From Muricea muricata (Eukaryota; Cnidaria; Anthozoa; Malacalcyonacea; Plexauridae): 64,000 bases of DNA. The stretch spans positions 2,914,001 to 2,978,000 of the forward strand of contig OY979719.1 of the NCBI GenBank assembly GCA_963855995.1, given 5' to 3'. Each line of letters opens with the position of its first letter. Positions within the stretch are counted from its first letter, which is position 1. This document shows positions 1-38,635 of this stretch, piece after piece. The notes beneath the pieces are model-generated. The model made no database searches. It was given only the letters and a program-made list of their open reading frames with translations, and was not told where the DNA came from. The position numbers were made by a program, and so were the translations under genes.

Positions 1-3000
1 ACCAATTGCTAAATCAGGCCACAGCCTGTACCACTACATCACTCAATCATGTTTGCAAAAAGGTGTTAATTATTGACTTTAATAATTGTTTCCTTTATTT
101 TTACTCCAAAATGATTGCAAAGGGCTTTAGCAGGATTTGAACCAGACCAATTGCTAATTCAGGCCAGAACCAGACTTTAATGATTATTTTCTTTATTATT
201 ACCCCAAAATGATTGCCAAGGACTTTAGCAGGACTTGAACCAGACCAATTGCCAATTCAGGCCAAAGCCTGTACCACTACATCACTCAATCATGTTTGAA
301 GAAAGGGGTTAATTATTGAGCTTAATAATTATTTCCTTTATTTTTACCCCAAAATGTTTGCAAAGCGCGTTAGCAGGATTTGAACCAGACGAATTCTTAA
401 CTCTGGCCAAAGCCTGTAACACCACATCACTCCATCATGTTTTGTAATAGGTGTTAATTATTGACTTTAATCATTAGTTCCTTTATTTTTACCTCAAAAT
501 GTTTGCAAAGGACTTGAGGAGGATTTGAACCAGACCAATTGCTAATTCAAGCCGAAGTCTGTACTACTGCATTACTCAATCGTGTTTGAAACAGGATGCT
601 AATTATTGACTTTAACCATTATGTCCTTTATTTTTACCCCAAAATGATTGCAAAGGACTTTAGAAGGATTTGAACCATACCAATTGCAAAATCAGGCCAA
701 AGCCTGTACCACCACATCACTCAATCTAGTTTGAAATAGGATGTTAATTATTGACTTTAATAACTATTTCCTTTATTTTTACCCCAAAATGTTTGCAAAG
801 GACTTTAGCAGCATTTGAACCGGATTAATTGCTAATTGCATGAAGCCAAAGCCTGTAACACTAAATCACTCAGTCATGTTTAAAAAAAGGATGTTGATTA
901 TTGACTTAATAATTGTTTCCTTTATTTTTACCCCAAAATGTTTGCAAAGGATCTTAGCAGCATTTGAACCAGACCAATTGCTAATTCAGGCCAAAGCCTG
1001 TAACACTGCACCACTCAATCATTTTTTAAAAAAGGATGTTAATTATTGACTTTAATGATTATTTCCTTTATTTTTACCCAAAAATGATTGCAAAGGACTT
1101 TAGAAGGATTTGAACCAGACCAATTGCTAAATCAGGCCAAAGTCTGTACCACTGCATTACTCAATCTTGTTTGCAAGAAGGTGTTAATTATTGACTTTAA
1201 TAATTATTTCCTTTATTTTTACCCAAAAATGTTTGCAAAGGATCTTAGCAGCATTTGAACCAGACCAATTGCTAATTCAGGCCAAAGCCTGCAACACTGC
1301 ACCACTCAATCATTTTTTAAAAAAGGATGTTAATTATTGACTTTAATGATTATTTTCTTCATTTTTACCCCAAAATGATTAAAAAGGACTTTAGCAGGAT
1401 ATGAACCAGACCAATTGCCAACTCTGGCCAAAGCCTGTACCACCACATCACTCCATCATGTTTGGAAATAGGTGTTAATTGTTGACTTTAATCATTAGTT
1501 CCTTTATTTTTACCTCAAAATGTTTGCAAAGGACTTGAGGAGGATTTGAACCAATTACTAATATAAGCCAAAGTCTGTACCACTGCATCACTCAAACATG
1601 TTTAAAATAGGATCCTAATTATTGACTTCAATCATTTTTCCCTTTATTTTTACCCCAAAATGATTGCAAAGGACTTTAGCAGGATTTGAACCAGACCAAT
1701 TGCTAAATAAGGCCAAAGCCTGTACCACTGCATTACTCGATCTTATTTGCAAAAAGGTGTTAATTATTGACTTTAATAATTATTTCCTTTATTTTTACCC
1801 CAAAATGATTGCAAAGGACTTTAGAAAGATTTGAACCAGACCAATTGCTAAATCAAACTAAAGCCAGTACCACTGCATCACTCAATCTTGTTTGAAATAG
1901 GATGTTAATTATTGACTTTAATAATTATTTCCTTCATCATTACCCAAAAATGTTAACAAAGGACTTTAGCAGCATTTAAACCAGACCAATCGCTAATTGC
2001 ATCAAGCCAAAGCCTGTAACACTGCACCACTCAATCATTTTTTAAAAAAGGGCGTTAATTATTGACTTTAGTGATTATTTTCTTCATTTTTACCCCAAAA
2101 TGATTGCAAAGGACTTTAGCAGGATTTGAACCAGACCAATTGCTAATTCAGGCCAAAGCCTGTACCACTACATCACTCAATCATGTTTGCAAAAAGGTGT
2201 TAATTATTGACTTTAATAATTGTTTCCTGTATTTTTACCCCAAAATGACTGCAAAGGGCTTTAGCAGGATTTGAACCACACCATTTGCTAATGATGGCCA
2301 AAGCCTGTACCATTACATCACTCAATCATGTTTGCAAACAGGTGTTAATTATTGACTTTAATAATTGTTTCCTTTATTTTTGCTCCAAAATGATTGCAAA
2401 GCGCGTTAGCAGGATTTGAACCAGACGAATTCTTAACTCTGGCCAAAGCCTGTAACTCCACATCACTCCATCATGTTTCGTAATAGGTGTTAATTATTGA
2501 CTTTAATCATTAGTTCCTTTATTTTTACCTCAAAATGTTTGCAAAGGACTTGAGGAGGATTTGAACCAGACCAATTGCTACTTCAAGCCGAAGTCTGTAC
2601 CACTGCATTACTCAATCGTGTTTGAAACAGGATGCTAATTATTGACTTAAACCATTATTTCCTTTATTTTTACCCCAAAATGATTGCAAAGGACTTTAGA
2701 AGGATTTGAACCATACCAATTGCAAAATCAGGCCAAAGCCTGTACCACCACATCACTCAATCTAGTTTGAAATAGGTTGTTAATTATTGACTTTAATAAC
2801 TATTTCCTTTATTTTTACCCCAAAATGTTTGCAAAGGACTTTAGCAGCATTTGAACCGGATTAATTGCTAATTGCATGAAGCCAAAGCCTGTAACACTAC
2901 ATCACTCAGTCATGTTTAAAAAAAGGATGTTGATTATTGACTTAATAATTGTTTCCTTTATTTTTACCCCAAAATGATTGCAAAGGGCTTTAGCAGGATT

Positions 3001-6000
3001 TGAACCACACCAATTGCTAACTCTGCCCAAAGCATGTACCACCACATCACTCCATCATGTTTGGTAAAAGGTGTTAATTATTGACTTTAATCATTAGTTT
3101 CTTCATTTTTACCTCAAAATGTGCGCAAAAGACTTTGGGAGGATTTGAACCAGACCAATTGCTAAATCAAGCCAAAGCCTGTACCACTGCATTACTCAAT
3201 CTTGTTCGCAAAAAGGTGTTAATTATTGACTTTAATGATTATTTCCTTTATTTTTACCCAAAAATGATTGCAAAGGACTTTAGAAGGATTTGAACCAGAC
3301 CAATTGCTAAATCAGGCCAAAGTCTGTACCACTGCATTACTCAATCTTGTTTGCAAAAAGGTGTTAATTATTGACTTTAATAATTATTTCCGTTATTTTT
3401 ACCCAAAAATGTTTGCAAAGGATCTTAGCAGCATTTGAACCAGACCAATTGCTAATTCAGGCCAAAGCCTGCAACACTGCACCACTCAATCATTTTTTAA
3501 AAAAGGATGTTAATTATTGACTTTAATGATTATTTTCTTCATTTTTACCCCAAAATGATTAAAAAGGACTTTAGCAGGATATGAACCAGACCAATTGCCA
3601 ACTCTGGCCAAAGCCTGTACCACCACATCACTCCATCATGTTTGGAAATAGGTGTTAATTGTTGACTTTAATCATTAGTTCCTTTATTTTTACCTCAAAA
3701 TGTTTGCAAAGGACTTGAGGAGGATTTGAACCGATTACTAATATAAGCCAAAGTCTGTACCACTGCATCACTCAAACATGTTTAAAATAGGATCCTAATT
3801 ATTGACTTCAATCATTTTTCCCTTTATTTTTACCCCAAAATGATTGCAAAGGACTTTAGCAGGATTTGAACCAGACCAATTGCTAAATCAGGCCAAAGCC
3901 TGTACCACTCCATTACTCGATCTTATTTGCAAAAAGGTGTTAATTATTGACTTTAATAATTATTTCCTTTATTTTTACCCCAAAATGATTGCAAAGGACT
4001 TTAGAAAGATTTGAACCAGACCAATTGCTAAATCAAACTAAAGCCAGTACCACTGCATCACTCAATCTTGTTTGAAATAGGATGTTAATTATTGACTTTA
4101 ATAATTATTTCCTTCATCATTACCCAAAAATGTTAACAAAGGACTTTAGCAGCATTTAAACCAGACCAATCGCTAATTGCATCAAGCCAAAGCCTGTAAC
4201 ACTGCACCACTCAATCATTTTTTAAAAAAGGGCGTTAATTATTGACTTTAGTGATTATTTTCTTCATTTTTACCCCAAAATGATTGCAAAGGACTTTAGC
4301 AGGATTTGAACCAGACCAATTGCCAATTCAGGCCAAAGCCTGTACCACTACATCACTCAATCATGTTTGAAAAAAGGTGTTAATTATTGACTTTAATAAT
4401 TGTTTCCTGTATTTTTACCCCAAAATGACTGCAAAGGGCTTTAGCAGGATTTGAACCACACCAATTGCTAACGATGGCCAAAGCCTGTACCATTACATCA
4501 CTCAATCATGTTTGCAGAAAGGTGTTAATTATTGACTTTAATAATTGTTTCCTTTATTTTTACTCCAAAATGATTGCAAAAGGCTTTAGCAGGATTTGAA
4601 CCAGACCAATTCCTAACTCTGGCCAAAGCCTGTACCACCACATCACTCCATCATGTTTGGAAATAGGTGTTAATTGTTGACTTTAATCATTAGTTCCTTT
4701 ATTTTTACCTCAAAGTTTTTGCAAAGGACATGAGGAGGATTTGAACCAGACCAATTGCTAATTTAAGCCAAAGTCTGTACCACTGCATCACTCAAACATG
4801 TTTAAAATAGGATCCTAATTATTGACTTTAATCATTTTCCACTTTATTTTTACTCCAACATGATTGCAAAGGATTTTAGCAGGATTTGAACCAGACCAAT
4901 TGCTAATTCAGGCCAAAGCCTGTACCACTACATCACTCAATCATGTTTGAAGAAAGGGGTTAATTATTGAGCTTAATAATTATTTCCTTTATTTTTACCC
5001 CAAAATGTTTGCAAAGCGCGTTAGCAGGATTTGAACCAGACGAATTCTTAACTCTGGCCAAAGCCTGTAACACCACATCACTCCATCATGTTTTGTAATA
5101 GGTGTTAATTATTGACTTTAATCATTAGTTCCTTTATTTTTACCTCAAAATGTTTGCAAAGGACTTGAGGAGGATTTGAACCAGACCAATTGCTAATTCA
5201 AGCCGAAGTCTGTACTACTGCATTACTCAATCGTGTTTGAAACAGGATGCTAATTATTGACTTTAACCATTATGTCCTTTATTTTTACCCCAAAATGATT
5301 GCAAAGGACTTTAGAAGGATTTGAACCATACCAATTGCAAAATCAGGCCAAAGCCTGTACCACCACATCACTCAATCTAGTTTGAAATAGGATGTTAATT
5401 ATGGACTTTAATAACTATTTCCTTTATTTTTACCCCAAAATGTTTGCAAAGGACTTTAGCAGCATTTGAACCGGATTAATTGCTAATTGCATGAAGCCAA
5501 AGCCTGTAACACTAAATCACTCAGTCATGTTTAAAAAAAGGATGTTGATTATTGACTTAATAATTGTTTCCTTTATTTTTACCCCAAAATGTTTGCAAAG
5601 GATCTTAGCAGCATTTGAACCAGACCAATTGCTAATTCAGGCCAAAGCCTGTAACACTGCACCACTCAATCATTTTTTAAAAAAGGATGTTAATTATTGA
5701 CTTTAATGATTATTTCCTTTATTTTTACCCAAAAATGATTGCAAAGGACTTTAGAAGGATTTGAACCAGACCAATTGCTAAATCAGGCCAAAGTCTGTAC
5801 CACTGCATTACTCAATCTTGTTTGCAAAAAGGTGTTAATTATTGACTTTAATAATTATTTCCTTTATTTTTACCCAAAAATGATTGCAAAGGACTTTAGA
5901 AGGATTTGAACCAGACCAATTGCTAAACCAGGCCAAAGTCTGTACCACTGCATTACTCAATCTTGTTTGCAAAAAGGTGTTAATTATTGACTTTAATAAT

Positions 6001-7980
6001 TATTTCCTTTATTTTTACCCCAAAATGTTTGCAAAGGATCTTAGCAGCATTTGAACCAGACCAATTGCTAATTCCGGCCAAAGCCTGTACCACTACATCA
6101 CTCAATCATGTTTGTAGAAAGGTGTTAATTATTGAGCTTAATGATTATTTCCTTTATTTTTACCCCAAAATGATTGCAAAGGACTTTAGCAGGATTTGAA
6201 CCAGACCAATTCCCAACTCTGGCCAAAGCCTGTACCACCACATCACTCCATCATGTTTGGAAATAGGTGTTAATTGTTGACTTTAATCATTAGTTCCTTT
6301 ATTTTTACCTCAAAATGTTTGCAAAGGACTTGAGGAGGATTTGAACCAATTACTAATATAAGCCAAAGTCTGTACCACTGCATCACTCAAACATGTTTAA
6401 AGAGGATCCTAATTATTGACTTCAATCATTTTTCCCTTTATTTTTACCCCAAAATGATTGCAAAGGACTTTAGCAGGATTTGAACCAGACCAATTGCTAA
6501 ATCAGGCCAAAGCCTGTACCACTGCATTACTCAATCTTATTTGTAAAAAGGTGTTAATTATTGACTTTAATAATTATTTCCTTTATTTTTACCCCAAAAT
6601 GATTGCAAAGGACTTTAGAAAGATTTGAACCAGACCAATTGCTAAATCAAACTAATGCCAGTACCACTGCATCACTCAATCTTGTTTGAAATAGGATGTT
6701 AATTATTGACTTTAATAATTATTTCCTTCATCTTTACCCAAAAATGTTAACAAAGGACTTTAGCAGCATTTAAACCAGACCAATCGCTAATTGCATCAAG
6801 CCAAAGCCTGTAACACTGCATTACTCAATCATTTTTTAAAAAAGGGCGTTAATTATTGACTTTAGTGATTATTTTCTTCATTTTTACCCCAAAATGATTG
6901 CAAAGGACTTTAGCAGGATTTGAACCAGACCAATTGCTAATTCACGCCAAAGCCTGTACCACTACATCACTCAATCATGTTTGAAAAAAGGTGTTAATTA
7001 TTGACTTTAATAATTGTTTCCTGTATTTTTACCCCAAAATGACTGCAAAGGGCTTTAGCAGGATTTGAACCACACCAATTGCTAATGATGGCCAAAGCCT
7101 GTACCATTACATCACTCAATCATGTTTGCAGAAAGGTGTTAATTATTGACTTTAATAATTGTTTCCTTTATTTTTACTCCAAAATGATTGCAAAAGGCTT
7201 TAGCAGGATTTGAACCACACCAATTGCCAACTCTGGCCAAAGCCTGTACCACCACATCACTCCATCATGTTTGGAAAAAGGTGTTAATTATTGACTTTAA
7301 TCATTAGTTTCTTCACTTTTACCTCAAAATGTGTGCAAAAGACTTTAGGAAGATTTGAACCAGACCAATTGCTAAATCAGGCCAAAGCTTGTACCACTGC
7401 ATTACTCAATCTTGTTTGCAAAAAGGTGTTAATTATTGACTTTAATAATTATTTCCCTTATTTTTACCCAAAAATGATTGCAAAGGACTTTAGAAGGATT
7501 TGAACCAGACCAGTTGCTAAATCAGGCCAAAGCCTGTATCACTGCATTACTCAATCTTGTTTGCAAAAGGGTGTTAATTATTGACTTTAATAATTATTTC
7601 CTTTATTTTTACCCCAAAATGATTGCAAAGGGCTTTTGCAGCATTTGGACCAGACCAATTGCTAATTTAGGCCAAAGCCTGTAACCCTGCACCACTCAAT
7701 CATTTTTTAAAAAAGGATGTTAATTATTGACTTTAATGATTATTTTCTTTGTTTTTCCCCCAAAATGATTGCAAAGGACTTTAGCAGGATTTGAACCAGA
7801 CCAATTGCAAGTTACGGCCAAAGCCTGTACCACTACATCACTCAATCATGTTTGAAAACACGTTAATTGTTGATCTTAATAATTATTTCCTTTATTTTTA
7901 CCCCAAAATAATTGCAAAGGGAGGATTTGAATTTGAATTTGAACCACACCAGTTAAAGTCTATGATTGACATATCATTTC
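1..7980 (-). repeat. 145-bp satellite array, tRNA-like unit (minus orientation)
   Basis: About 55 head-to-tail copies of a 145-bp unit. Successive ACCAATT-type landmarks fall at 244, 389 and 534, exactly 145 apart; one early unit carries an internal deletion. Read on the minus strand, each unit holds a Pol III B-box match (GGTTCAAATCC), preceded 43 nt upstream by an A-box-like TGATGTAGTGG, the spacing of a real tRNA. The rest of the unit is AT-rich. Because 145 is not a multiple of three, the short ORFs here are chance products of the repeat. Different blocks recur almost unchanged at offsets of about 2.04, 2.18, 2.62 and 4.65 kb, so higher-order units of roughly 14, 15, 18 and 32 monomers overlap in a mosaic. 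What it does is unknown; a satellite grown from a SINE or tRNA-like seed is my reading. Confidence 0.93.
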
Positions 7981-7989
7981 AAACATGAG

Positions 7990-9060
7990 TGAGTGATGCA
8001 GTGCTGCATGGTCTGTTTTGAATTAGCAATTGGCCTGGTTCAAACCCTGCAAAAGTCCTTTGCAAACATTTTGGCGTAAAAATAAAGGAAATAATTATCA
8101 AAGTCAATAATTAACACATTTTTTGAAATATGATGGAGTGATGTAGTGTTACAGGCTTTGGCCTGAATTAGCAATTGGTCTGGTTCAAATCCAGCTAAAG
8201 TCCTTTGCAATCATTTTGGGGTAAAAATAAAGGAAATAATTATTAAAGTCAATAATTAACATCCTATTTCAAACAAGATTGAGTGATGCAATGGTACATG
8301 CTTTGGCCTGAGTTAGCAATTGGTCAGGCTCAAATCCTGCTCAAGCCCTTAGCAATCATTTTGGGGTAAAAATAAAGGAAATAATTATTAAAGTCAATAA
8401 CTAACACCTTTTTTCAAACATGATTGAGTGATGTAGTGGTACAGGCTTTGGCCTGAATTTGCAATTGGTCTGGTTCAAATCCTGCTGAAGTCCTTTGCAA
8501 TCATTTTGGGGTAAAAATAAAGAAAATAATCATTAAAGTCAATAATTAACATCATATTTCAAACATGATTGAGTGATGCAGTGGTACAGAGTTTGGCTTG
8601 AATCAGCAATTGGTCTGGTTCAAATCCTCCTAAAGTCCTTTGCAAACATTTTGAGGTAAAAATTAAGGAACTATAATGGTTAAAGTCAATAATTAACACC
8701 TTTTTCCAAACATGATGGAGTGATATGGTGGTACAGGCTTTGGCCAGAGTTAGCAATTGGCGTGGTTCAAATCCTGCTAAAACCCTTTGCAATTGTTTTG
8801 GGGTAAAAATAAAGGAAATATATAATTATTAAAGTCAATAATTAACACCTGTTTTCAAACATGATTGAGTGATGTAGTGGTACAGGCTTTAACCTGAATA
8901 GCAATTGGTCTGGTTCAAATCCTGCTAAAGTCCTTTGCAATCATATTGGGGTAAAAATAAAGAAAATAAGCATCACAGTCAATAATTAACATCATATTTC
9001 AAACATGATTGAGTGATGCAGTGGTGTACAGACTGCAGCTTGAATCAGCAATTGGTCGGG
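7990..9060 (+). repeat. Inverted continuation of the 145-bp satellite
   Basis: Roughly seven further copies of the same unit in the opposite orientation, so the tRNA-like reading (A box, then GGTTCAAATCC, then an A-rich tail) is now on the plus strand. The switch lies near 7930-7990, where the unit is broken and a GAATTT motif is repeated. Copies here differ from each other more than those to the left. The opposed arms make a large potential hairpin around 7980. Confidence 0.9.
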
Positions 9061-10655: not shown

Positions 10656-10659
10656 TTAA

Positions 10660-11266
10660 AGTGCCCATGTCAGAAAATGAGACTTTGCATATTTGAATTC
10701 TACTCAGGACGTAGATAATGAAAATCCAAAGCAGATTTCAATTTGAGTTAGTTTTCGCGGAGAAATATTGCTTTGAAATTCAAAAATTTCAAATTTTAAC
10801 GGCAAAAGATTTTGACAACCGCGGAGTTGGGAAACTGGTGACTGAACGTCACTATAGGAACTCGCCGCTCGCGTGTTGTAGTAATTAATATATAAATACA
10901 ACGTGAGAACAACATTGTACTTTTGTAAGATCTTTGAAAATGGCCTCGTCGAGCTCAGATACCGAAAGCCGTAGCTACCAAAGTGACGACTCAGAATGGA
11001 ACTATATTCCTGGGCCGTATAATATAGAAAAAACGAGCGCAAGCGGTGAAAATGGAAGTGAAATGCGCGACTCAAATAGTCATCACGAAGGCAACGTCGG
11101 ACCGTATGCAAATGAACCAGTTGCTGACGAAGACTGGCTGACAAATTATCGCGAAAAAAAGCAAAGATACGACGAACGGCTCATGAAACTACAACTGAGG
11201 CGTAAATGGTAAATATTTCTTTTCAAATACTGTTGCGTGACCGATCAGACTTCGATTCGTGACATC
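10660..11266 (+). mobile_element. 5' end of a TTAA-target DNA transposon
   Basis: Starts AGTGCCCATGTCAG directly after TTAA (10656-10659). The same terminus occurs on the minus strand at 38427, also next to TTAA. The two copies share the first ~40 bp and a GTCACTATAGGAAC block 189-190 bp inside, with the spacing conserved. TTAA duplications are typical of Kolobok and piggyBac elements; assignment to Kolobok is an inference. Only the 5' part is here: similarity to the Harbinger element begins at 11267, and no matching 3' end is visible. A short ORF starts 280 bp inside the terminus. Confidence 0.6.
10940..11208 (+). CDS. Acidic N-terminal exon, P2X7-intracellular-like family (partial)
   Basis: An ATG at 10940 opens a frame of about 90 residues rich in Ser, Asp and Glu (MASSSSDTES at the start). 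It then has a PYANEPVADEDW motif and a charged helix (REKKQRYDERLMKLQLRR). It ends at a good splice donor (AAATG|GTAAAT at 11208/11209), two bases into a Trp codon. From memory of the family, acidic N-termini with a P-Y-x-x-E-P-x-A-D-E-x-W segment precede a Cys-rich P2X7-intracellular-type domain in many cnidarian transposon-associated genes. That Cys-rich part is not found downstream, where the Harbinger element begins 58 bp later. It is probably an orphaned first exon of the TTAA element. No function is claimed. Confidence 0.45.
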
Positions 11267-11432
11267 TCTTAACTGCTTTTTAACCACCCAAAAAGTAGTT
11301 AAATAGTGGTTAACTTTAATCACGTAGTTAGGCCGGTTGTACAAAAAGGCAGTTAGCGTTAACTGCAGTTAAAAAGTAGTTAAAGTTAACTATCCTCAAT
11401 GGCATAGTTAACTTCTCAAAACCTAGTTAAAT

Positions 11433-11651
11433 ATGGCGGCTGTATTAAGAGTGAACAACTTTTATGAGCGAGATAATACTGAAAGGCAACTCTTACTTAG
11501 AGTTTTTAATCGTCAACTTCCCTGGAAAGATTTCTCAGATAAAGAACTCCTAAAACGCTATAGATTTGGCGGAGAATCTTTGCTTTTTATAGCGCGACTC
11601 ATCGACGGCGAAGTGAGACCACTAACAAAGCGAAACCAGGCTCATCACTAA
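11433..11651 (+). pseudogene. Truncated Harbinger transposase, N-terminus only
   Basis: 72 codons reading MAAVLRVNNF..., with the motif ELLKRYRFGGESLLFIARLI followed by a DGEVRPLTKRNQA-type segment. This is the N-terminal helical part of PIF/Harbinger (HARBI1-like) transposases, which are usually about 350-400 residues long. The frame stops at AHH just where the family normally continues into the DDE domain, and no DDE catalytic region follows. The retained fragment is open here but frameshifted in copy 2, so it is probably a relic, though use as a short DNA-binding peptide cannot be excluded. Confidence 0.8.
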
Positions 11652-12211
11652 AGACTTATAATTTTAGCAGTGGTAGTGGTTGGTGGTCTTGCTGCAGGAC
11701 GTCCACCAGTTTTCCATTGAGACTGCATTACCCCAGCATTTGGGCCATGTTTTGCAATTTTCCCGTATTTCTATTGGTGTACGTTTTTCATAGCTGTTAA
11801 TCTGGGAAGTAAATAGTTTCACACAACTTTTGCTTTTAGGCATTTGTTATTGTGCTCGAAAATTGGCCCCGTAGTGTGTCTAAATTTTGTTCAACTATAT
11901 TAACCAGTAGGTTGCATTCTACTGAATTAAAATTTTGTTTTGGTTTTCTTCCCTTGTTTTGGATTAGTTGCTTTATGGGCAGACATTTTGAATTTGTGTA
12001 CATGTAATTAGTAATTCAACTTGAAAAATACCTGTAAGCTTGGCAACTGCATGTGGTTACATGGGAAAATATGACCTCAGACATGATACAAATACATACA
12101 GTATATATGACATGAGTTGTATATTGATTTTTGTTACATCTGACAACCCATCAAACAAATATTGATTATTGTGTATAACACAATATTGAAACATATAGTG
12201 TACCTTCTAAT

Positions 12212-12454
12212 TAACAATTAGATTACGAGCTCGAGATTTCTATGCGGTGATAGTTGATGAGGGCAATTAGTAGAATCAGAGGTCAAACATGGAATATTCA
12301 ACAAAAAATTTGATTTTCAGGCAATTTTTTAAAAGAAATCTCTACAGGAAGATGATTGTTTTGCTACTCGCTATCTATCGAGGAATAGATAGCGAGTAGA
12401 GTAACCAATCAAATTGCAGCATTTGCAATAGTATACTAGTATGATTCTACTAAT
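12212..12454. mobile_element. Insertion in Harbinger copy 1 absent from copy 2
   Basis: About 243 bp lie between two CTAAT pentamers (12207-12211 and 12450-12454). Copy 2 has a single CTAAT there and continues straight on. The insert has a strong internal hairpin around 12375-12400 (CTACTCGCTATCTATC and its complement). No terminal repeat class is evident. Confidence 0.55.
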
Positions 12455-12790
12455 AGTGAATAAACTCATACAGATTGAAATATTTAAACTTTAACAACAT
12501 TAGCCAAGTTGGTTTTAATCTAGGCTAACCCAGATTAGGTTTTATGATGAAAATGACTTGAGTTTATTTATAAATTTATCCATACTGCAGAATTGAAGGC
12601 AACAAATTTGCAATTATATAGTGCAAATTTGATCATTTGAAATTCATATATTCTTCATATATTTATATAAACTCATATATTCTTACAGATATTGCTTCGA
12701 CAATTTGCCACACATTTGAATGATTTGTGCACATTTGATGCATTTGCATTTTGGCACCCAGGTGCAAATTTAATGTGAATCTGGTTTTTA

Positions 12791-14035
12791 GTGCAAAGTT
12801 TCAAAGAAACTTTGCAGTATTGTGATGAGTGGCGAAAATTCAAATCAGTCAGGCAGTCAGTCAGTCAGTCAGTCAGTCAGTCAGTCAGTCAGTCAGTCAG
12901 TCATAGTGTAAACTCCGGGGGGTGGTGCAAATTTTGAATATGCCACCTGATTACTTGAATGTTACTATTGCAATGTTTTAGTTAAAATTATAAGTATTAT
13001 TTATAAACCATTTTGTGCTGTTATTCATACAAATAAAAAAGATAGGTAAATGAGTCATATGGCAACTAATGAGCGCAGTAATTTTATTGCAGACATGTAT
13101 ATACAGTGCTCTCAAACTCCCCCGGAATTTAAAATATTCAACTAAGCACGTGTATATTGCGTAGCGCCCGCTTCCGTTGCTATGCAGAGGTCTAGGAGTG
13201 GGATAATAAACATGAGTTAAACATGTATTTCCACGGCTTAAAAGCACCATTTTAACTGGCAGGACAAGATTTTTTAATCTTCAGACTATTATGCTTTCGT
13301 TTATTATGCATAAAGAGCGATTTTTCGCCTTAAAACGAGCTCAAATGGACAGCATAAGTTGACCTATATGGTATGAATATAAATGGCTAACAAGAGATAT
13401 GAGCTATAGTTTGAATACATAGCAATAAATACACCGCAATATTTTCGCTATTCTACGTCTTATATTCCTAAATATACACCACATGAATTGCAGGAGTTTT
13501 GTTCTACATTTCGGCCAGGCTTCATCAAAAAATGATGAAAAACAAGCGAGATAAAGCGAAATCGGCATATTTGATAATGTTGCGTGCGTGCGAGATCAGT
13601 TTCTGCAAGGTTGTGATGCGATGACTGATGATTGTGTACATAAAATTTCCAATAATACTAGTAGACCTAAAGTAAACCGTACATAAGTATACTAAGTAAA
13701 GATATTGGCCTAATATTGTGACAGTTTTTTATTAACACACAGAAGAGCGCACAGTTTGTATGTTTGCAATCTTAGTTCACGTTCAATATTAATTGCGCGT
13801 TCATTCCGTTTTGTTTATATGAGTCTAAGGTCAGAGGTCAGAGATTCAGCAAACGTGAAACCGAATATGCTCGCTAAACATGAAAATTATAAAATTATCA
13901 GAGTGTCTAAAAACGTCCCACGTAAACAAAACGCTTTTAGACCACATCATTTTAACATTTTATTTCCAAAGCTATCATTAAATTTTTCTTAGTTTTTCGA
14001 GTTTAAGTGTGTAAGTCTTTTCAGAAACTTTGCAC
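12791..14035. mobile_element. Nested 1.2-kb TA-flanked insertion
   Basis: Absent from the paralogous Harbinger copy. Ends are inverted (GTGCAAAGTTTC left, GAAACTTTGCAC right) with TA at 12789-12790 and 14036-14037. The left end contains a second inverted copy of the terminus a few bases inside. The interior has a (GTCA)n microsatellite and two short open stretches (12978-13250 minus, 13756-13992 plus) that I do not recognise as proteins. Probably a non-autonomous TA-target element. Confidence 0.6.
12845..12904. repeat. (GTCA)n microsatellite
   Basis: About 14 near-perfect tetranucleotide copies, inside the nested insertion. Confidence 0.95.
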
Positions 14036-14879
14036 TATCCTTGGATCCCTAGTTCATTTTATTTATGGGTTTCAAATAATCAAATTTGCACTGTAGCAAA
14101 GAGAAATGTCTCTTGCTAAAACCTTGCTGATTAAACCATTAAAATATTGAAGTAGTTTCTGTAACAAACTGCCACCTATAGCCAAAAACTTTACAAAAGG
14201 ATACCATTAAGTTGTCACATGTGTATTTCACCACTTCTATGACTGAGTATGACATGAGTTTGATTACTGCTTGTTTTAATTATTAAATAGGTGACAGTGT
14301 AACCCCCACCATAAACAATGACCAGTATGACCAGTCCCAAAATATCCAGTAATCCATTTCCAATACATGTCTTGACTTCGCTTTTCTTCATTAGCATATG
14401 TTTGCAAAATAAACATTTTAACATCTTTACACAAATCTGCTTGGCACTCCTGATACAGTCAGCGAGTCAGACAAACAAATTACACAATTTAGCACATGTG
14501 ACGTCCAGTGATCCAGACAAATCATTTCAAATTTACAAACCAACGAATTAGTACTTTCTTCAATAATGGTGAATGTTTGTATTTGTACGAAAAAAAGTAT
14601 GATTGCTTTTATCACAGATCAGGCGCATTCTTCTGCAATTATTTGAATCGAATTTGTTAGCCACTGTTAAATAAACAAGACTTAATTCATTTTAATTTAT
14701 GTTAACTGCACCACGCGAGCCCCACGCAAGTTAACTACGTGATTAGTTAACTATCCGACTAACTGCGTTTTGTGCAACGCAGTTAAGTCGTGCAGTTAAC
14801 TAACTACGGTTAAGGATTTAACTAGGGTAGTTAACGCTAACTGCAGTTAACTTTAACTACTTTTTTATACAACCGGCCC

Positions 14880-15580
14880 CAGCTGATGCATAAATATTTG
14901 AATTTTATAGTTTCCATATTTATGTACCTGTATGATTTGAGAACTGGACTGAATTTATTGCATCTACTTCAAAACCATGGACCTTGTTTGTAAAATTAAT
15001 TATAAAAATGAAAATTGTATACCAATGTCATATACCACCCAAGATCAATTTTGGCCACTAATCATTTGCTAAAATAATGTTCATTTTATTCTAGCACCTT
15101 GAGCATGCATTAATGTTGAAAATTTGAAGATTAGAATTATGCTGAAGATATTAGTGAGACAGCATCGACCACAGAGATAGCCAAAGGTTTTAACTCTGCC
15201 TAACACGACAGCCTGTCTAACTACACTTATAGCAGATCCAGCCTACTACACCCTGTTGTTGAATAGGGATCAATTGATTTATTTAGTATATGCTAATCAT
15301 TGAAGATACAGATTTTAAACCTTGGAGATACATATATGTAGTGTGGATATTTCATGTATGACATTTCAAATACTACATTACTAATATCTACGACCCACTA
15401 ATGCTTTATACTCTTGTAGTTTTATGTTTTATAGTTTTATTTCTTGTCTTGTAGTTTTATAGATTGTAGTTTTACAAAAACTCTGTAATTGTACTTATAT
15501 ACATATAATTGATTTCGTCTCTCTTTTTCATGTAAATCACATAACAATTTAGCTGTCTAAGCTACTTAATGTGTGTATTT

Positions 15581-28414: not shown

Positions 28415-30576
28415 CTGTATCTCCCATCCAAACTTCTAATTCCTTGAATATGGGTCAAAATTATTACAAAACTATGTAGGCTACAAACTAAATTATTATC
28501 TCAACACCTATCTCCCCCCTCCTACACAACCATCTCATTCCTACCACCTCCTTCTCACCCCCCCCCAAAAAGAAACACAAAAAAATTACAACACAGTACA
28601 AGGAATTTGGCACGAATATATTTTGTACACTGAAATGCAACAACTTCAAATGCAGAACTTCAAAGACAAAGGCTCTAGTTTCAATTCTTCCCTAAAAATA
28701 CCTTAATTGTACAAATTTGGTTGAATTTGACTAAACAACCCCTTCCTAACCTTTGTAGTTAAAGTACAAAAATATTTGTTAAAGTAATTCTTAAAGTATG
28801 CATTAAAGTCAGTCGGCCAAGTTATAAATACATTTGGCCGTCTGTTTGCATTCGGCCAGTTCTGCCGCTTCGGTTGCAGTCAGAAGCAAGAATATTCATT
28901 ATTGGCCAATATATTGTAAAAAAGCATCAAGAAATTTTCGTCAAATTACATTAAATAACCATTTTCTAAACTTTGTAGTTCTTTAAAAAAGATAATAATT
29001 TAAAAAGTACAAAATATCTGTTAAAATATGCTTACATGTAAACCAACTAAAATAACTGAATTACTGGATGAATTGTATAAATTTTCGTTAATGTACGCTA
29101 AATAACCATTTTCTAAGCTTTGTAGTCCTTGAAAATAAAGTAAAAGGCCAAAATATTTGTTATAAAGCATGCTTAAATCTCAGTTGTCAAAGTTATAAAT
29201 AATATACATCTGCGACCTTCGTATTCGATTTCGGGCTGTCAAACACCAAAAATAACTCGCTAAAAATACCTCAATTGTACAAATTTTTGATGAAATACGC
29301 TAAATAACCATTTCCTAAGCTTTTTAGCCGTTGAAAATAAAGTAAAAGGCCAATGTTGTTCAGGAATGCTGTAATATGTTAGTTGTCAAAATTATAAAAT
29401 TAATACATTTGGCCTCCTTCGTGCATTCAACCAGTACTGGGTTGTGAAAAACCAGAAAATATTCGCTAAAAATACCCAAGTTATACAAAATTTCGCTAGT
29501 TTACGCTAAATAAGCATTCCCAACATCTTGTAGTCGATAAAAAGAAAGGAAAAAGTCGAAACCTTGTTAATAAACCTTGTTTAAAAAGTCTTCAAAGCGA
29601 ACACATGTGGCCGCCTTTGTGAATTCGGTACCGCCGCTTGGCGTGTCAAAAATCGCAAAATTTGACAAAAAAAGAACAACTTTCATAAATTATTACCTGT
29701 AATGGGGGAACACCTGTTATACCACTTCTTTCTTGTTTTTTTCCGCATTCTGTAAGATTGTTTTACCGTTTTTTTTTATGATTGAAGGCAGAGATAGTTG
29801 AATTAGACGTGTGGCCATCAAAAATCTTATTTCTTCTTCCCGCTTCAGCGCTCAAATCGACCGTTGATTGGTTACTCACATTAATAACTTAATTAGCTAT
29901 ATTTTTCTATATTCGCTCATGTGAAATACGGTCAATTACGTGTAAATGATGAAATATTAATTATAATTGATTTATATTTTAAATTAATCAGTCAAATGTT
30001 ACTTTGAACATTGCAAAATGAAGTTTGATAAACCTAGAAGTATTGAACTATGCTATGATTTTACCCAGCACCTACCCCCTACCCCTACCCTCATTCCAAC
30101 CTCCTTTTCCCTGAATAGGTCTCATTTCATGAAAAAAAATACCAACCAATAAAATTAAAATTTTACCAATGTTCCCCTGTCTTCTCCAGACCAGATTTTA
30201 CTACTATCTAGCACCCCCCCCCTACCTCCACCCCTACCCATCTAGACTTCAATCCCTCTGGAAAGGTCTCCTTTCCTTTCATAAAAAATAACTCTGAACA
30301 CTTCATCATAACTCTCCAAAATTTCATCTATTACAAGGCTATGATAAGCAACAAACTGACCATGAATAATTTACACCCTCACTGCTCCTCCCCTATACCA
30401 GTAAGTCTATGCACCCCTCATGTTGAATCACAAAACCTCTAAAATTTTACACTTTGCTTTAAATGCAATATTTTCTGTCAAATATTTATCCGATATATCT
30501 ATGAAAACATCAAAACAGAGTGCTAAACACAATTATATGGCTGTCCCATCTCACCCTATATCTCTCTATATCAAAA

Positions 30577-30688
<112 letters not shown>

Positions 30689-31018
30689 TTCTTCCAAATT
30701 CCAATTACACTGCACGCCTCCCTTCAACCTCCTTCCTAACTACAACTACCACTACAAACCCACCACCTTTGCCCAACTTATTTAATACTGTATCTCCCAT
30801 CTAAACCTCTAATTCCTTGAATACGGGTCAAAATTATTACAAAACTATGTAGGCTACAAACTAAATTACTATCTCAACACCTATCTCCCCCTCCTACATA
30901 ACCATCTCATTCCTGCCACCTCCCTCTCCTCCCCCCCAAACCCCCCCCCCCCCCCCACAAAAAATCAAAACAACACAGTGCAAGGAATTTGGCACGAATA
31001 TATTTTGTACACTGAAAT

Positions 31019-31803
31019 CATAGGCGGCCCAATTCAGTGTGTAGTTTCATATAGAGATCAGTGCGCACATAAACACACTTCATACATTATTATATAAATA
31101 TCCTAAGGCTGGCAACTCTTTTACAGTAATAAACTGACACATGTTAGACTTTCGCTTCAAACAAAAAATTAACACAATTTACCGCAAAAAAACTAGATAC
31201 AAATGATCTTGGATATCTCTTCTACATTTCTAGATAGTTTTTAGACAAAAACAAGATTCCAAAATACGTAAATTTGTTCAATAAAAAGTGTTTTTGATCA
31301 AAATTTTCCGTGTAGATAGGCGGGATGCAAAGTGCCCTACAAACGTCATCTTCGGAAATGACTTCGGCTAAGCTGCTATTGGCTGATGAGCACTCGGAAA
31401 CGCCGAAGAAAAGACGAATTCAATAGCAGCCAATAGGAACTTAGATTTGCTTAGCCGAAGTCATTTCCGAAGATGACGTTTGTAGGGCACTTTGCATCCC
31501 GCCTATCTACACGGAAAATTTCGATCAAAAACACTTTTTATTGAACAAATTTACGTATTTTGGAATCTTGTTCTTGTCTAAAAACTATCTAGAAATGTAG
31601 AAGAGATATCCAAGATCATTTGTATCTAGTTTTTTTGCGGTAAATTGTGTTAATTTTTTGTTTGAAGCGAAAGTCTAACATGTGTCAGTTTATTACTGTA
31701 AAAGAGTTGCCAGCCTTAGGATATTTATATAATGATGTATGAAGTGTGTTTATGTGCGCACTGATCTCTATATGAAACTACACACTGAATTGGGCCGCCT
31801 ATG
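31019..31803. mobile_element. 785-bp foldback element with 7-bp duplication
   Basis: Two arms of about 355 bp are near-perfect inverted copies; the loop is about 60 bp (31380-31440). Ends are CATAGGCGGCCC and GGGCCGCCTATG. The 7-bp target duplication CTGAAAT (31012-31018 and 31804-31810) is confirmed by unit A and unit C, which carry the empty site with a single CTGAAAT. No ORF. The 252-bp element at 50712-50963 has matching terminal bases and duplication length. Confidence 0.93.
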
Positions 31804-34160
31804 CTGAAATGCAACAACTTCAAATGCAGAACTTCAAAGACAAAGGCTCTAGTTTCAATTCTTCCCTAAAAATACCTTAATTGTACAAATTTGGTTGAAT
31901 TTGACTAAACAACCCCTTCCTAAGTCCTAACGTTTGTAGTTTTTTTCAAATAGAAGTAAAAGTACAAAAATATTTGTTAAAGTCATTCTTAAAGTATGCA
32001 TTAAAGTCAGTCGGCGAAGTTATAATACATTTGGCCGTCTGTTTGCATTCGGCCAGTTCTGCCGCTTCGGTTGCAGTCAGAAGCAAGAATATTCATTATT
32101 GGCCAATATATTGTAAAAAAGCATCAAGAAATTTTCGTCAAATTACATTAAATAACCATTTTCTAAACTTTGTAGTTCTTTAAAAAAGATAATTTAAAAA
32201 GTACAAAATATCTGTTAAAATATGCTTACATGTAAACCAACTAAAATAACTGAATTACTGGATGAATTGTATAAATTTTCGTTAATGTACGCTAAATAAC
32301 CATTTTCTAAGCTTTGTAGTCCTTGAAAATAAAGTAAAAGGCCAAAATATTTGTTATAAAGCATGCTTAAATCTCAGTTGTCAAAGTTATAAATAATATA
32401 CATCTGCGACCTTCGTATTCGATTTCGGGCTGTCAAACACCAAAAATAACTCGCTAAAAATACCTCAATTGTACAAATTTTTGATAAAATACGCTAAATA
32501 ACCATTTCCTAAGCTTTTTAGCCGTTGAAAATAAAGTAAAAGGCCAATGTTGTTCAGGAATGCTGTAATATGTTAGTTGTCAAAATTATAAAATTAATAC
32601 ATTTGGCCTCCTTCGTGCATTCAACCAGTACTGGGTTGTGAAAAACCAGAAAATATTCGCTAAAAATACCCAAGTTATACAAAATTTCGCTAGTTTACGC
32701 TAAATAAGCATTCCCAACATCTTGTAGTCGATAAAAAGAAAGGAAAAAGTCGAAACCTTGTTAATAAACCTTGTTTAAAAAGTCTTCAAAGCGAACACAT
32801 GTGGCCGCCTTCGTGAATTCGGTACCGCCGCTTGGCGTGTCAAAAATCGCAAAATTTGACAAAAAAAGAACAACTTTCATAAATTATTACCTGTAATGGG
32901 GGAACACCTGTTATACCACTTCTTTCTTGTTTTTTTCCGCCTTTTGTAAGATTGTTTTACCGTTTTTTTATGATTGAAGGCACAAATGGTTGAATTAGAC
33001 GTGTGGCCATCAAAAATCTTATTTCTTGTTCCCGCTTCAGCGCTCAAATCGACCGTTGATTGGTTACTCACATTAATAACTTAATTAGCTATATTTTTCT
33101 ATATTCGCTCATGTGAAATACGATCAATTACGTGTAAATGATGAAATATTAATTATAATTGATTTATATTTTAAATTAATCAGTCAAATGTTACTTTGAA
33201 CATTGAAAAATGAAGTTTGATAAACCTAGAAGTATTGAACTATGCTATGATTTTACCCAGCACCTACCCCCTACCCTCATTCCAACCTCCTTCCCCCTGA
33301 ATAGGTCTCATTTCATGAAAAAAAATATCAACCAATAAAATTAAAATTTTACCGATGTTCCCCTGTCTTCTCCAGACCAGATTTTACTACTATCTAGCAC
33401 CCCACCCCCTACCTCCACCCCTACCCATCCAGACTTCAATCCCTCTGGAAAGGTCTCCTTTCCTTTCATAAAAAATAACTCTTGAACACTTCACCATAAC
33501 TCTCCAAAATTTCATCTATTACAAGGCTATGATAAGCAACAAACTGACCATGAATAATTTACACCCTCACTGCGCCTCCCCTATACCAGTAAGTCTATGT
33601 ACCCCTCATGTTGAATCACAAAACCTCTAAAATTTTACACTTCGCTTTAAATACAATATTTTCTGTCAAATATTTATCCGATATATCTATGAAAACATCA
33701 AAACAGAGTGCTAAACACAATTATATGGCTGTCCCATCTCACCCTATATCTCTCTATATCAAAATCTGATATATATATATATATATATACTCCGATATAT
33801 ATATATATATATACTCCGACCAAATTCCAATTACACTGCACGCCTCCCTCCAACCTCCTTCCTAACTACAACTACCACTACAAACCCACCACCTTTGCCC
33901 AACTTATTTAATACTGTATCTCCCATCTAAACCTCTAATTCCTTGAATATGGGTCAAAATTATTACAAAACTATGTAGGCTACAAACTAAATTACTATCT
34001 CAACACCTATCTCCCCCTCCTACATAACCATCTCATTCCTGCCACCTCCCTCTCCCCCCCCCCCAAAAAAAAAAACCCCACAAAAAATCAAAACAACACA
34101 GTGCAAGGAATTTGGCACGAATATATTTTGTACACTGAAATGCAACAACTTCAAATGCAG

Positions 34161-36718
34161 GGGCCGGTTGTATAAAGCTCTTAACTGCTTTTTAACTACC
34201 CAAAAAGTAGTTAAATAGTGGTTAACGTTAACCACGTAGTTAGGTCGGTTGTACAAAAAAGCAGTTAGTGTTAACTGCAGTTAAAAAGTAGTCAAAGTTA
34301 ACTATCCTCAATGGCATAGTTAACTTCCCAAAACCTAGTTAAATATGGCGGCTGTATTAAGAGTGATCAACTTTCATGAGGAGATAATACTGAAAGGCAA
34401 CGCTTACCTAGAGTTTTTAATTGTCATCTTCCCTAGGAAGATTTCTGAGTTGAAGAACTCCTAAAACGCTATAGATTTGGCGGAAAATCCTTGCTTTTTA
34501 TAGCGTGACTCATCGACCGGGAAGTGAGACCACTAACAAAGCAAAACCAGGCCCATTGCCTAAGACTTATAATTTTAGCAGTGGTAGTGGTTGGTGGTCT
34601 TGCTGCAGGTCGTCCACCTGTTTTCCTTTGAGACTGCGTTATCCCAGAATTTTTTGGGTTTTTTTTGTCAATTTGGGCCATGCTTTGCTATTTTCCCGAA
34701 TTTCTATTGGTGTACGTTTTTCATAGCTGTTAATCTGGGAAGTAAATAGTTTCCCACAACTTTTGCTTTTTGGCATTTGTTATTGTGCTCGAAAATTGGC
34801 CCCGTAATGTGTCTAAATTTTGTTCAACTATATTAACCAGTAGGTTGCATTCTTCTGAATTAAAATTTTGTTTTCTTTTCTTTTCTTCCCTTATTTTAGA
34901 GTAGTTGCTTTTTGGGCAGACATTTTGAATTTGTGTGTATATGTAATTGAGTAATTCAACTCAATGTAACTGAGTAACTCAAAATACCTGTAAGCTTGGC
35001 AACTGTGGTTACATGGGAAAATATGACCTCAGACATGATACAAATACATACAGTGTGACATGAGTTGTATATTAACTTTTGTTACATCTTTACAACACAT
35101 CAAATAAATATTGATTCTTGTGTATAACACAATATTGAAAAATATAGTGTACCATCTAATAGTGAATAAACTCATACAGATTGAAATATTTAAACTTTAA
35201 CAACATTAGCCAAGTTGGTTTTAATCTAGGCCAACCCAGATTAGGTTTCATGATGAAAATGACTTGAGTTTATTTATAAATTTATCCACACTGCAGAATT
35301 TTCTACAAGATCTTGGGGGTGTAAAATCTAGGGGCAGGGGTGCAAAACAGTACAAAAGTAACCATCCAAATAGGTACCAAACACAGTAAAATTTAGAGAT
35401 TTGGGGCAGATTTAAGTTTTAATTGCTTAAATAATGAAGCACTTCCCAGGGGTACTAAAAACTTTTCCCCAAAAAATCTTGGGGGAAACTCTGACCAACT
35501 CTGCAGTCTGGTAACCAAGGATAGTACAATTCACAGGATGAAAAATCAGATTTACAATACATTTTCAACCCAGTGCCAAAATGCAAATGCCATGCAGGCA
35601 ACAAATTTGTTATTATATAGTGCAAATTTGATCATTTGAAAACTGATATATTCTTCTTTTAGACAGATATTGCTTCAACAATTTGCCACACATTTGAATG
35701 ATTTGTGCACATTTGATGCATTTGCATTTTGGCACCCAGGTGCAAATTTTGTGTGAATCTGGTTTTTCATTTTATGTATGTGTTTCAAATGATCAAATTT
35801 GCACTATATAGCAAATGTTTTGCCTTCACAGAATTTGCATTTTGGCACTGGGTTGAACATGTATTGCAAATCTGATTTTTCATCCTGTGACTCTGTAAGG
35901 GCCAGTCATTATTCATGGTGGAAGTTTGCACCAAACAGAAATGTCTTCTCTTGCTAAAAACTTGCTGATTAAACCATTAAAATATTGAAGTAGTTTCTGT
36001 AACAAACTGCCACCTATAGCCAAAAGCTTTACAAAAGGATACCATTAAGTTGTCACACATGTATTTCACCACTTCTATGACATGAGTTTGATAACTGCTT
36101 GTTTAATTAATTAATAGGTGACAGTGTAACCCACACTATAAACAATGACCAGTCCCCCAATATCTAGTAATCCATTTCCAGTACATGTCTTGACTTCGCT
36201 TTTCTTCATTAGCATATGTTTGCAAACTAAACATTTTAATATCTTTACACAAATCTGCTTGGCACTCTCGATACAGTCAGTGAGTCACACAAACAAATTA
36301 CACAATTTAGCACTGTGACGTCCAGTGATCCAGACAAGTTTTGGCCAGTTTTAAGGTCGAAATTTACAAACCAACGAAATAGTACTTTCCTCAATAATGG
36401 TGAATGTTTGTATTTGTACGAAAAAATGTATAACGGTTGCTTTTATCACAGATGAGGCGCATTCTTCTGCAATTATTTGAATCGAATTTGTTAGCCATTT
36501 TTAAACAAACAATACTTAATTTATTTTAATTTAATTTATGTCAACTGCCCCACGCGAGCCACACGCAAGTTAACTACGTGATTAGTTAACTATCCGACTA
36601 ACTGCGTTTTGTGCAACGCAGTTAAGTCGTGCAGTTAACTAACTACGGTTAGGGATTTAACTAGGGTAGTTAACGCTAACTGCAATTAACTTTAACTACT
36701 TTTTTATACAACCGGCCC
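34161..36718 (+). mobile_element. PIF/Harbinger element, copy 2 (both ends present)
   Basis: 2558 bp from GGGCCGGTTGTATAAA to TTTATACAACCGGCCC, with a CAG triplet at 34158-34160 and 36719-36721 that fits the 3-bp duplications of this superfamily (usually TWA). Subterminal regions of about 150 bp are packed with AGTTAA/GTTAAC motifs in both orientations. The interior is non-coding apart from a frameshifted transposase fragment. It sits exactly where the third copy of the 2.4-kb repeat ends. Confidence 0.88.
34345..34560 (+). pseudogene. Frameshifted Harbinger transposase fragment
   Basis: Homologous to the 72-codon fragment in copy 1: same ATG context and the same region encoding the RYRFGG-type motif. 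A one-base loss near 34380, a TAA in the old frame near 34460 and further changes destroy the reading frame. Confidence 0.8.
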
Positions 36719-37509
36719 CAGGTGTAAATGCGAAAATTGCCGCATCGAACTGCTTCACAATAGTAAAGAGAGCCAGTGCTGTATGGAAGTTGCAACCTCG
36801 CATTCGTTTTCCTTTGGCTCGTCATCTTTTTCTATCAATATGTTACACTGAATACCTGAATATGAAAATAAATTATCATATTGCTTAAAAGGAAAGAATT
36901 AATAAATTTTATTATAAAAGGATCTCGCACAACCTACTCTGTAGCTTAAGCGGTACTTTCCATACTTCTGTTTCTGAGGTTTTCGGCGTGCGTGCATTTT
37001 ACAGGTATAATAAGTTACTTGGAGTAAATATGCATGTTAATATACGCATGTTCGCATTAGTTTTAATTGAATGTCCATATTTATTGTATATAGATTAGGT
37101 GCAAATATTAATGACTTACTATAATCAATTGCACAACATGAATCTATGTAAAAAAATAAAAATTATATATAGTGCATACAGTCCATACTAATCTAAAACC
37201 ACATCAGACAGTTCCCTGTGGTGCGTACATGTCAGGTTAAATATGATACGTTTCTTTAGAGCGTTTCACGATCATGATGATTTCATCGTATTTTGCTTTA
37301 AGCGAGATATATTTATTTGATGATCTCCTTCTTTCTTTGATAAGGTACGCGCAACCAACACAACCACTGGTTTCAGTCGAATTATCTTTCTTCTAAACGA
37401 CAATAATAAAGTGCGCTTTAATAATCTAAGTATAATCTAATATACTATCAAATTACTTGTACTATGTTATTGGCAAAAGAAATATTTTGTAAGCTGTGTT
37501 GTATCTTAC
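36719..37509. other. Spacer downstream of the THAP exon
   Basis: AT-rich. Because the THAP exon ends in a donor at 37509, its next exon would be expected here on the minus strand or beyond the Harbinger insertion. I found no convincing acceptor plus open frame. Confidence 0.4.
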
Positions 37510-37896
37510 GGTGTCTAGTAATGACTGTAAATTGCTTTCAGTATTCAAAAAATTTCTTACCTTTCGCTTGTCTCTCGTGGACAAAGCTTTGTTGTCAGGA
37601 TTCGTATATTTAGGAACAGCAACAACACCAATTTTATCAAAAATTAACCGTGGTTTTTTAGTCGAGAGAGTGGCGAACATATCATAGAAGTCCTCCTTGG
37701 CAAAATGTGCGGAACAAACGCTGGAGTTCGGAGTTGGTTCCCATTTTGCCCGCTTACGCACGAAGTCAACCCACTGTTTTGGCCTCCTTTTTGCTTCGGG
37801 CCTCTCATCCCCAGCAAATGGAATGAAATGAAGAGAAATCCCCTCTGCAGGATTGGCAACATTAGAGCAACCTCCTACCACTCATCTATTAGGCAT
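37510..37896 (-). pseudogene. THAP zinc-finger exon with in-frame TGA at first Cys
   Basis: An ATG at 37896 reads M-P-N-R, then TGA (37884-37882), then VVGGCSN and on through a THAP domain: Cys10, W42, P54, Cys61-S-A-His64-F, and AVP at 93-95. THAP C2CH fingers normally start M-P-x-x-C-x4-C, so the TGA stands exactly at the first zinc ligand. Apart from that codon the 129-codon exon is open and ends at a good donor (ACC|GTAAGA). Upstream, past a 240-bp MITE, lies the terminus of a TTAA-target transposon, so this is probably the first exon of its THAP-type transposase. Reading through as selenocysteine is unlikely; a nonsense change (TGC or TGT to TGA) is simpler. Confidence 0.8.
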
Positions 37897-37937
37897 GGCC
37901 CGAATTTAGAGTGTTTAATTTGTGCTAACACCTTCTA

Positions 37938-38177
37938 CACAGCAAAAAATGAACAACCTGTTCTGGCCTGATGAAAACAGCCATGAACAATGTTTTGCTG
38001 CCCACATTGTTCAAGGTTGTCAACAATATTGTTCAACATTGTTACACCTGATTGCTGGCTAATTCAGGCTCAACAATACTGAACAATATTGTTAACAACG
38101 TTGAACAATGTGGGCAGCAAAACATTGTTCATTGCTGTTTTCATCAGGCCAGAACAGGTTGTTCATTTTTTGCTGTG
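37938..38177. mobile_element. 240-bp MITE with TA duplication
   Basis: Inverted arms of about 85 bp beginning CACAGCAAAAAATGAACAAC and ending in the mirror image, with TA at 37936-37937 and 38178-38179. The inner part repeats AACAATATTGTT-type palindromes. It lies between the THAP start codon and the transposon terminus, so it landed in the 5' leader. Confidence 0.85.
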
Positions 38178-38179
38178 TA

Positions 38180-38427
38180 TATTATGTCTCACGCAATAGG
38201 ATTTACTATATTCTGAGTTAGACCGGTTCCTATAGTGACGTCACACGCACGAATTTCGCCCCAGTCTTTTTTCGCGGTTTTTCGATTATTTACAACGCAA
38301 ATTTCATTGTTTAGACGTTAATAACTTTTGAACAAACAGCCCGATTTCTATTCTGTTCTATAACTTCTATACTTATTTTTATCATTGAATTCAAAAATGC
38401 AAAGTCTCATTTTCTGACATGGGCACT
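38180..38427 (-). mobile_element. Terminus and leader of a TTAA-target transposon (second copy)
   Basis: On the minus strand this begins AGTGCCCATGTCAG next to TTAA (38428-38431) and matches the plus-strand copy at 10660. The shared GTTCCTATAGTGAC block (38225-38238, plus reading) lies 189 bp inside. Removing the intervening MITE puts the THAP ATG about 290 bp from the terminus, almost the same place as the ATG of the other copy (280 bp). Confidence 0.62.
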
Positions 38428-38635
38428 TTAAGCCAAATGAGAGTCTGCTGTTCAGATTAACTGATAATATCCACTACAGTAACAGACCTTTGAAGTACTT
38501 GCGTCTGCCTTGCGTATACCAGTGCAAAATTAATCCCATTGTATTTTGGATAGAAAACTGTGTGACAGAGACACCTCTGAAGTCTATGTTGCTGGTTATA
38601 AGTTGAAAAAAGCCATAAATAAATGTTTATGAACG

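Follow-up and report, generated by a model that had tools for sequence, protein, structure and literature searches.

How does the same TTAA-adjacent leader come to stand before two different first exons? This question arises in the window analysed in our study, a stretch of 64,000 nucleotides from Muricea muricata (GCA_963855995.1, contig OY979719.1, positions 2,914,001 to 2,978,000), for which a sequence-only reading had proposed that one mobile family either encodes two proteins from related leaders or swaps N-terminal modules behind a common promoter. We consider it highly probable that positions 10660-38427 are one degenerate DNA transposon of the Kol0 kind of Kolobok, flanked by TTAA, whose two inverted ends each start one of two convergent genes. 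That these are the ends of one element, and not of two nearby copies, we infer from their geometry and from the splice phase of the predicted exons. The features are collected in Table 1. Three papers (PMC9587614, PMC6004289, and PMC7016195) serve for comparison, and what is said of them refers to the parts of their text that were consulted.

Table 1. Features of the putative Kolobok element and of the repeats nested in it, in window coordinates.
Feature	Position	Strand	Evidence and remarks
Left TTAA target-site copy	10656..10659	+	sequence; part of 44/45 match
Left terminal inverted repeat, 41 bp, begins AG	10660..10700	+	44/45 against right end, TTAA included
Subterminal block ACGTCACTATAGGAAC, CRE-like half site	10846..10861	+	186 bases inside left terminus
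TATA-like TATATAAATA, putative KolX core promoter	10889..10898	+	sequence
Probable KolX exon 1, acidic, ...GPYANEPVADEDW...RRK plus TG	10940..11208	+	open frame; donor GTAAAT at 11209
Nested PIF/Harbinger-like copy A in KolX intron 1	11249..14879	+	homologous to copy B from 11266 on; no recognisable left terminal repeat; Myb/SANT E=0.023
Nested PIF/Harbinger-like copy B	34161..36718	+	termini GGGCCGG...CCGGCCC, CAG on both sides; adjoins KolX exon 2
Probable KolX exon 2: last part of the W codon, CKCENC...SQCC, TGA at 36849-36851	36722..36851	+	motif scan, splice phase
Probable second exon of THAP/transposase gene	37237..37392	-	AG acceptor 37394-37393, phase 0, ends TAA
First exon of transposase gene, THAP zinc finger	37561..37896	-	ATG 37896, TGA at codon 5, donor GTAAGA at 37560
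MITE-like inverted repeat in right leader, 244 bp	37936..38179		116-bp arms, 93% complementary, TA on both sides
TATA-like ATATAGTAAA, putative	38202..38211	-	sequence
Subterminal block, identical 16-mer, overlaps CRE palindrome TGACGTCA	38226..38241	-	186 bases inside right terminus
Right terminal inverted repeat	38387..38427	-	44/45 match with left end
Right TTAA target-site copy	38428..38431	-	sequence; part of 44/45 match

Two matching ends and their leaders

The sequence AGTGCCCATGTCAG has exactly two perfect matches in the window, at 10660-10673 on the plus strand and at 38414-38427 on the minus strand, and the two further matches obtained with three mismatches are at chance level. Similarly, GTCACTATAGGAAC matches at two places in the window when up to two mismatches are allowed, with 0.31 expected, and both matches are exact (10848-10861 on the plus strand and 38226-38239 on the minus strand). 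When the ends are compared by BLASTN from 10656 (+) and 38431 (-), they are identical in 44 of 45 positions over TTAA and 41 bp (E=4e-17), and a separate block agrees in 16 of 16; the first base of this 16-mer lies exactly 186 bases from the first base of the terminus at both ends. The repeated terminus and inner block that had been reported at 10656 (+) and 38427 (-) are thus borne out. Between the terminal repeat and the block (offsets 46-185), 56 of 140 bases agree between the ends, and 130 circular shifts gave a mean of 39.7 (sd 5.3, maximum 60); this is a slight excess and no clear match, which may stem from composition or be what is left of a longer inverted repeat.

The two end copies, one on each strand, point towards each other, and TTAA lies outside both. 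This arrangement is that of a terminal-inverted-repeat transposon equipped with subterminal signals, and the copies match each other only in inverted form; the simplest reading is therefore that a single Kolobok has its left end in one of them and its right end in the other. In a search of the window for inverted exact 24-mers starting with TTAA, the 19 others among the matches listed (20) come from a 145-bp satellite array or from two pairs at short range, 61016/61230 and 31169/31630. The 5' termini of piggyBac are of the CC-type, unlike the RR of Kolobok. No piggyBac-type terminus is present at these ends, where the terminus is AG, and THAP is the only transposase-type domain found. The contrast between the two kinds of termini is also stated in PMC9587614, where Kolobok is described as making TTAA duplications and having RR/YY termini, and PMC6004289 describes Kolobok transposases with a THAP domain and AG termini. 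The corresponding features are all found in our study: TTAA outside both ends as the target-site duplication, AG...CT as the 5'-RR...YY-3' termini, and a terminal inverted repeat of 41 bp with one mismatch. The AG terminus next to TTAA agrees with both papers, and the THAP exon that starts from the right end agrees with PMC6004289.

The shared subterminal block is probably a promoter element or a transposase-binding element, and a role as a transposase site may hold instead of or besides a promoter role. In the CRE consensus, ACGTCA constitutes a half site and TGACGTCA the full site. The CRE-like ACGTCA at both ends, the full TGACGTCA at the right one, the TATA-like boxes, which on the left start 43 and on the right 30 bases from the start of the block, and the position of the ATG suggest that both ends act as promoters. 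The start codon is 280 bp from the terminus on the left and 531 bp on the right, and subtracting the 244-bp MITE-like repeat with its TA duplication leaves about 285 bp, so that the distances given before for leaders freed of the MITE, about 280 and 290 bp, were about right. The leaders would be alike because the same transposase must recognise both ends and because both act as promoters.

A more tentative possibility is that both ends carry, besides the terminal inverted repeat, a matched promoter cassette (the CRE-like block at its fixed offset of 186, a TATA-like box, and an ATG at about 280). A single inverted-repeat signal might then define the ends of the transposon and co-regulate transposase and KolX, and internally deleted copies might still yield a THAP-only repressor-like protein, for which the KP product of the P element is the comparison. 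The copy in the window could not make such a protein because of the early stop in its THAP frame. In a literature search not aimed at promoter sharing, no statement on promoter sharing between the two ends was found in the consulted parts of PMC9587614, PMC6004289, and PMC7016195.

The genes behind the two leaders

The right leader had been said to run into a THAP exon, and this is confirmed: after the stop, its frame matches the Pfam family THAP (PF05485) with E=7.4e-9, above the cut-off of the family, and the exon matches the structure of human THAP1 (2ko0) with E=0.0027. Residue 2 after the in-frame TGA aligns with position 3 of the profile, which places the stop at the first position of the THAP profile, presumably that of the first zinc cysteine. 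The probable second exon (37392-37237) holds a CxxC followed by a charged, helix-like stretch before the TAA, and neither a Pfam match nor a DDE core was found in it. The structures proposed for this gene and for the left gene make use of two predicted splice junctions, one in each.

The left gene, on the plus strand, is probably the accessory gene KolX. Its first exon (10940-11208), which by itself has no Pfam match, ends in a phase-2 donor (TG/GTAAAT). The sequence RCKCENC...SQCC at 36723 (+) turned up in a looser motif scan, which also returned two other cysteine matches, at 46212 and 52147. If the intron, predicted to be about 25.5 kb long, is spliced at the CAG just before exon 2, the junction codon becomes W and the joined frame reads ...RRKWCKCENCRIELLHNSKESQCC. 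Only one of the 1212 AG acceptors on the plus strand between 11209 and 38431, the one directly before 36722, opens WCxCxxC in the phase of exon 1, and such an opening occurred in 2 of 300 Markov-1 simulations, a strict test that was devised after the sequence had already been seen. With the looser condition of CxCxxC within the first few residues, 155 of 300 simulations gave a match, as did one place on the minus strand of the real region, which shows that this is common by chance.

The frame of exon 2 holds the probable first cysteine cluster of the P2X7 ballast, or ZCD, a cluster given as PxWCxCx2C in PMC7016195. The sole Pfam match of the joined frame up to E=10 is P2RX7_C (PF20478), with E=0.006 and 16.9 bits, which is under the Pfam cut-off of 23.5. 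The feature expected of the second Kol0 protein, a KolX with the P2X7 ballast, would be represented by this match and by an in-phase WCKCENC...QCC, that is, by the first cysteine cluster only; the later P2X7 clusters (CITT and PSC...IR) were not found in this copy by motif scan. Eight altered joined frames served as controls: in six of them the residues from 51 on were shuffled, and in the other two a whole exon was reversed, exon 2 in one case and exon 1 in the other. Seven of them lost the match, but the frame in which exon 1 was reversed and exon 2 left intact reached 18.4 bits, more than the true join. The P2RX7_C signal is therefore due to exon 2 in its context, with none added by exon 1, so that the name KolX for exon 1 rests on splice phase and position. 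A shuffled control matched an unrelated family at E=0.037, which indicates that such scores are weak; the true join shortened to 67 aa gave 15.7 bits for P2RX7_C, with DUF1441 also matched at 0.095. Exon 2 with its W alone had no Pfam match, and no P2X7 chain in the PDB was matched up to E=10 by exon 1 alone or by the joined KolX frame. It is important to consider that, together with TTAA, the AG termini, and THAP, this weak match fits the earlier guesses of a Kolobok-type element and a P2X7-type Cys-rich domain.

State of the copy and nested repeats

Between the end of KolX exon 2 at 36851 and the end of the second exon of the THAP gene at 37237 lie 385 bp. Within this gap (36852-37236), AATAAA is present on the plus strand at 36867, 36901, and 37155 and on the minus strand (as TTTATT) at 36908 and 37080; the shortened convergent genes may still end properly at these signals. 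The transposase proposed to lie downstream did not appear in this copy: no DDD/E core with a C/DxxH motif was found by a motif scan of the window or by Pfam on selected ORFs. Strict motif scans gave neither a KolX nor a transposase, only one meaningless match across a stop, and the looser scan gave eight isolated transposase-motif matches with one mismatch, none of them clustered. Pfam analysis of ten interior ORFs, chosen from 221 listed, returned one match above its cut-off, Myb_DNA-bind_5 on the minus strand of the Harbinger-like copy B (1.1e-8), and, below the cut-offs, the same Myb family in copy A and six other families; the frames at 11427 and 34475 in these copies had no Pfam match. 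In an element whose two genes converge, the 385-bp gap is where the DDE core and the remaining KolX clusters would be expected; they are absent from it, and the copy in the window is therefore a probable dead, internally deleted, nonautonomous relic of a Kolobok and no complete member.

The searches beyond the window found neither the pattern nor the protein in viral contigs, nor the 25-base pattern in genome contigs. A match of 23 residues in Paenibacillus abyssi (L001) was dropped as a chance match of a charged stretch.

Copies A and B lie in direct orientation, with homology between 11266-14882 and 34178-36721, the main pieces being 88.6-97.9% alike. They are named PIF/Harbinger-like from their terminal sequence, which we take to be of PIF/Harbinger type, and from the Myb/SANT domain of copy B. 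The target site of Harbinger is TWA. In copy A, 17 bases of low similarity, preceded by CAG, stand in place of the left terminal repeat; immediately upstream of KolX exon 2, a pyrimidine-rich tract and the CAG acceptor are contributed by the right end of copy B. The two copies enclose about 19 kb, as would be seen in a composite transposon or after recombination, and this interval is rich in satellites and duplicated repeats, with no recognised part of a Kolobok.

Other repeats and frames were observed in and around the element. The 145-bp satellite array extends over 173-9057 with about 60 units, and its orientation flips near 7950. A duplication at 28827-34066, with a spacing of about 3.2 kb and an identity of 96-100% in the pieces listed, contains long AT runs and a 355-bp foldback (31019-31803) that is 99% complementary. 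On the minus strand, a frame at 40018-40443 has an EF-hand according to Pfam and is presumably similar to myosin regulatory light chains. Another frame, at 59603-59884 (+), looks to us like an Aquarius-type helicase, and the window has the look of animal DNA.

Known Koloboks and alternative readings

It is important to note that the gene pair has been described, which removes the earlier remark that no description was known: PMC9587614 reports that Kol0 Koloboks encode a transposase and KolX, the latter having the P2X7 cytoplasmic ballast fold. Elements of the Kol0 lineage (e.g. Kolobok-1_XT, PMC9587614) are alike in the TTAA target, the RR (AG) terminus, and the two proteins, one of them with a P2X7 ballast (KolX, here probable), whereas in the present copy neither the DDE core nor the later KolX exons were found and nested transposons have enlarged it. 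The Xenopus Kolobok transposases (XKol, PMC6004289) share the THAP domain in the transposase and the AG termini adjoining TTAA; in contrast, the terminal sequences found here are unlike the ten listed there, an intron probably follows the THAP frame, and the copy looks dead. Most KolobokP families carry an accessory gene on the complementary strand (PMC9587614), and their arrangement of two genes, in which the direct strand carries the transposase and the complementary strand, further downstream, the accessory protein, is similar to ours, but the accessory protein of KolobokP is a His-Me nuclease and its terminal repeats are long and direct, whereas the ends described here match only as inverted copies. 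For Kol0 elements, no statement on the orientation of KolX was found in the consulted part of PMC9587614. Finally, the C-terminal ballast/ZCD of P2X7 (PF20478, PMC7016195) has, like the probable KolX exon 2, a first cluster WCxCx2C followed by a CC pair, although its CITT and PSC...IR clusters were not found here and the match remains below the Pfam cut-off.

The region is 27.8 kb long, against 6.8-13.9 kb for the ten full-length Xenopus elements in Table 5 of PMC6004289, and its middle 19 kb shows repeats and nothing recognised as part of a Kolobok. Both facts would agree with an origin from two distinct, oppositely oriented copies of one two-gene Kolobok family, each of them truncated, the left one keeping only the KolX end and the right one only the transposase end together with KolX exon 2. 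We nevertheless regard this explanation as improbable, since it requires two coincident truncations and since exons 1 and 2, on either side of the nested insertions, are phase-compatible, like one split gene. A leader family that took up two different first exons would likewise account for a terminus and a block at offset 186 that are common to leaders whose exons differ; this module swapping is very unlikely, because a transposase and KolX in one element are the published content of Kol0 (PMC9587614), and because the exons lie at two ends, are convergent, and are accompanied by the probable KolX exon 2 within the same pair of terminal inverted repeats. We give hardly any credence to an unrelated dispersed repeat, a MITE, standing by chance upstream of two host genes: although this copy yielded no transposase core, THAP and the P2X7 ballast are the known gene pair of Kol0 Koloboks with TTAA and AG termini (PMC9587614, PMC6004289), and both frames open at about equal distance from the terminus. 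The part of the earlier proposal that called for two proteins from related leaders fits, while swapping behind a common promoter is unsupported, the leaders being best read as two ends of one element.

In the preferred reading of a single Kolobok, which is also supported by the probable KolX exon 2 on the plus strand inside the same pair of terminal inverted repeats and beyond the nested insertions, each inverted end would combine a terminal repeat with a TATA-like box and with the block common to both ends, a promoter or binding element. The left end would start KolX, a zinc-binding protein of the P2X7-ballast kind, and the right end the THAP-bearing transposase, so that the genes converge. 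This copy would have lost the DDE core and the remainder of KolX and acquired an early stop in its THAP frame, and later transposons would have swelled KolX intron 1 to its present length.

The observation is real but largely explained, and it falls within a described kind of element. What appeared to be exon swapping turns into ordinary transposon anatomy: leaders that resemble each other yet precede different genes can simply belong to opposite ends of one element. That the block lies equally far inside both ends offers a small testable lead on co-regulation, and the copy is a probable further relic of the lineage from which, as PMC9587614 proposes in the part consulted, the ballast domain of vertebrate P2X7 is derived.
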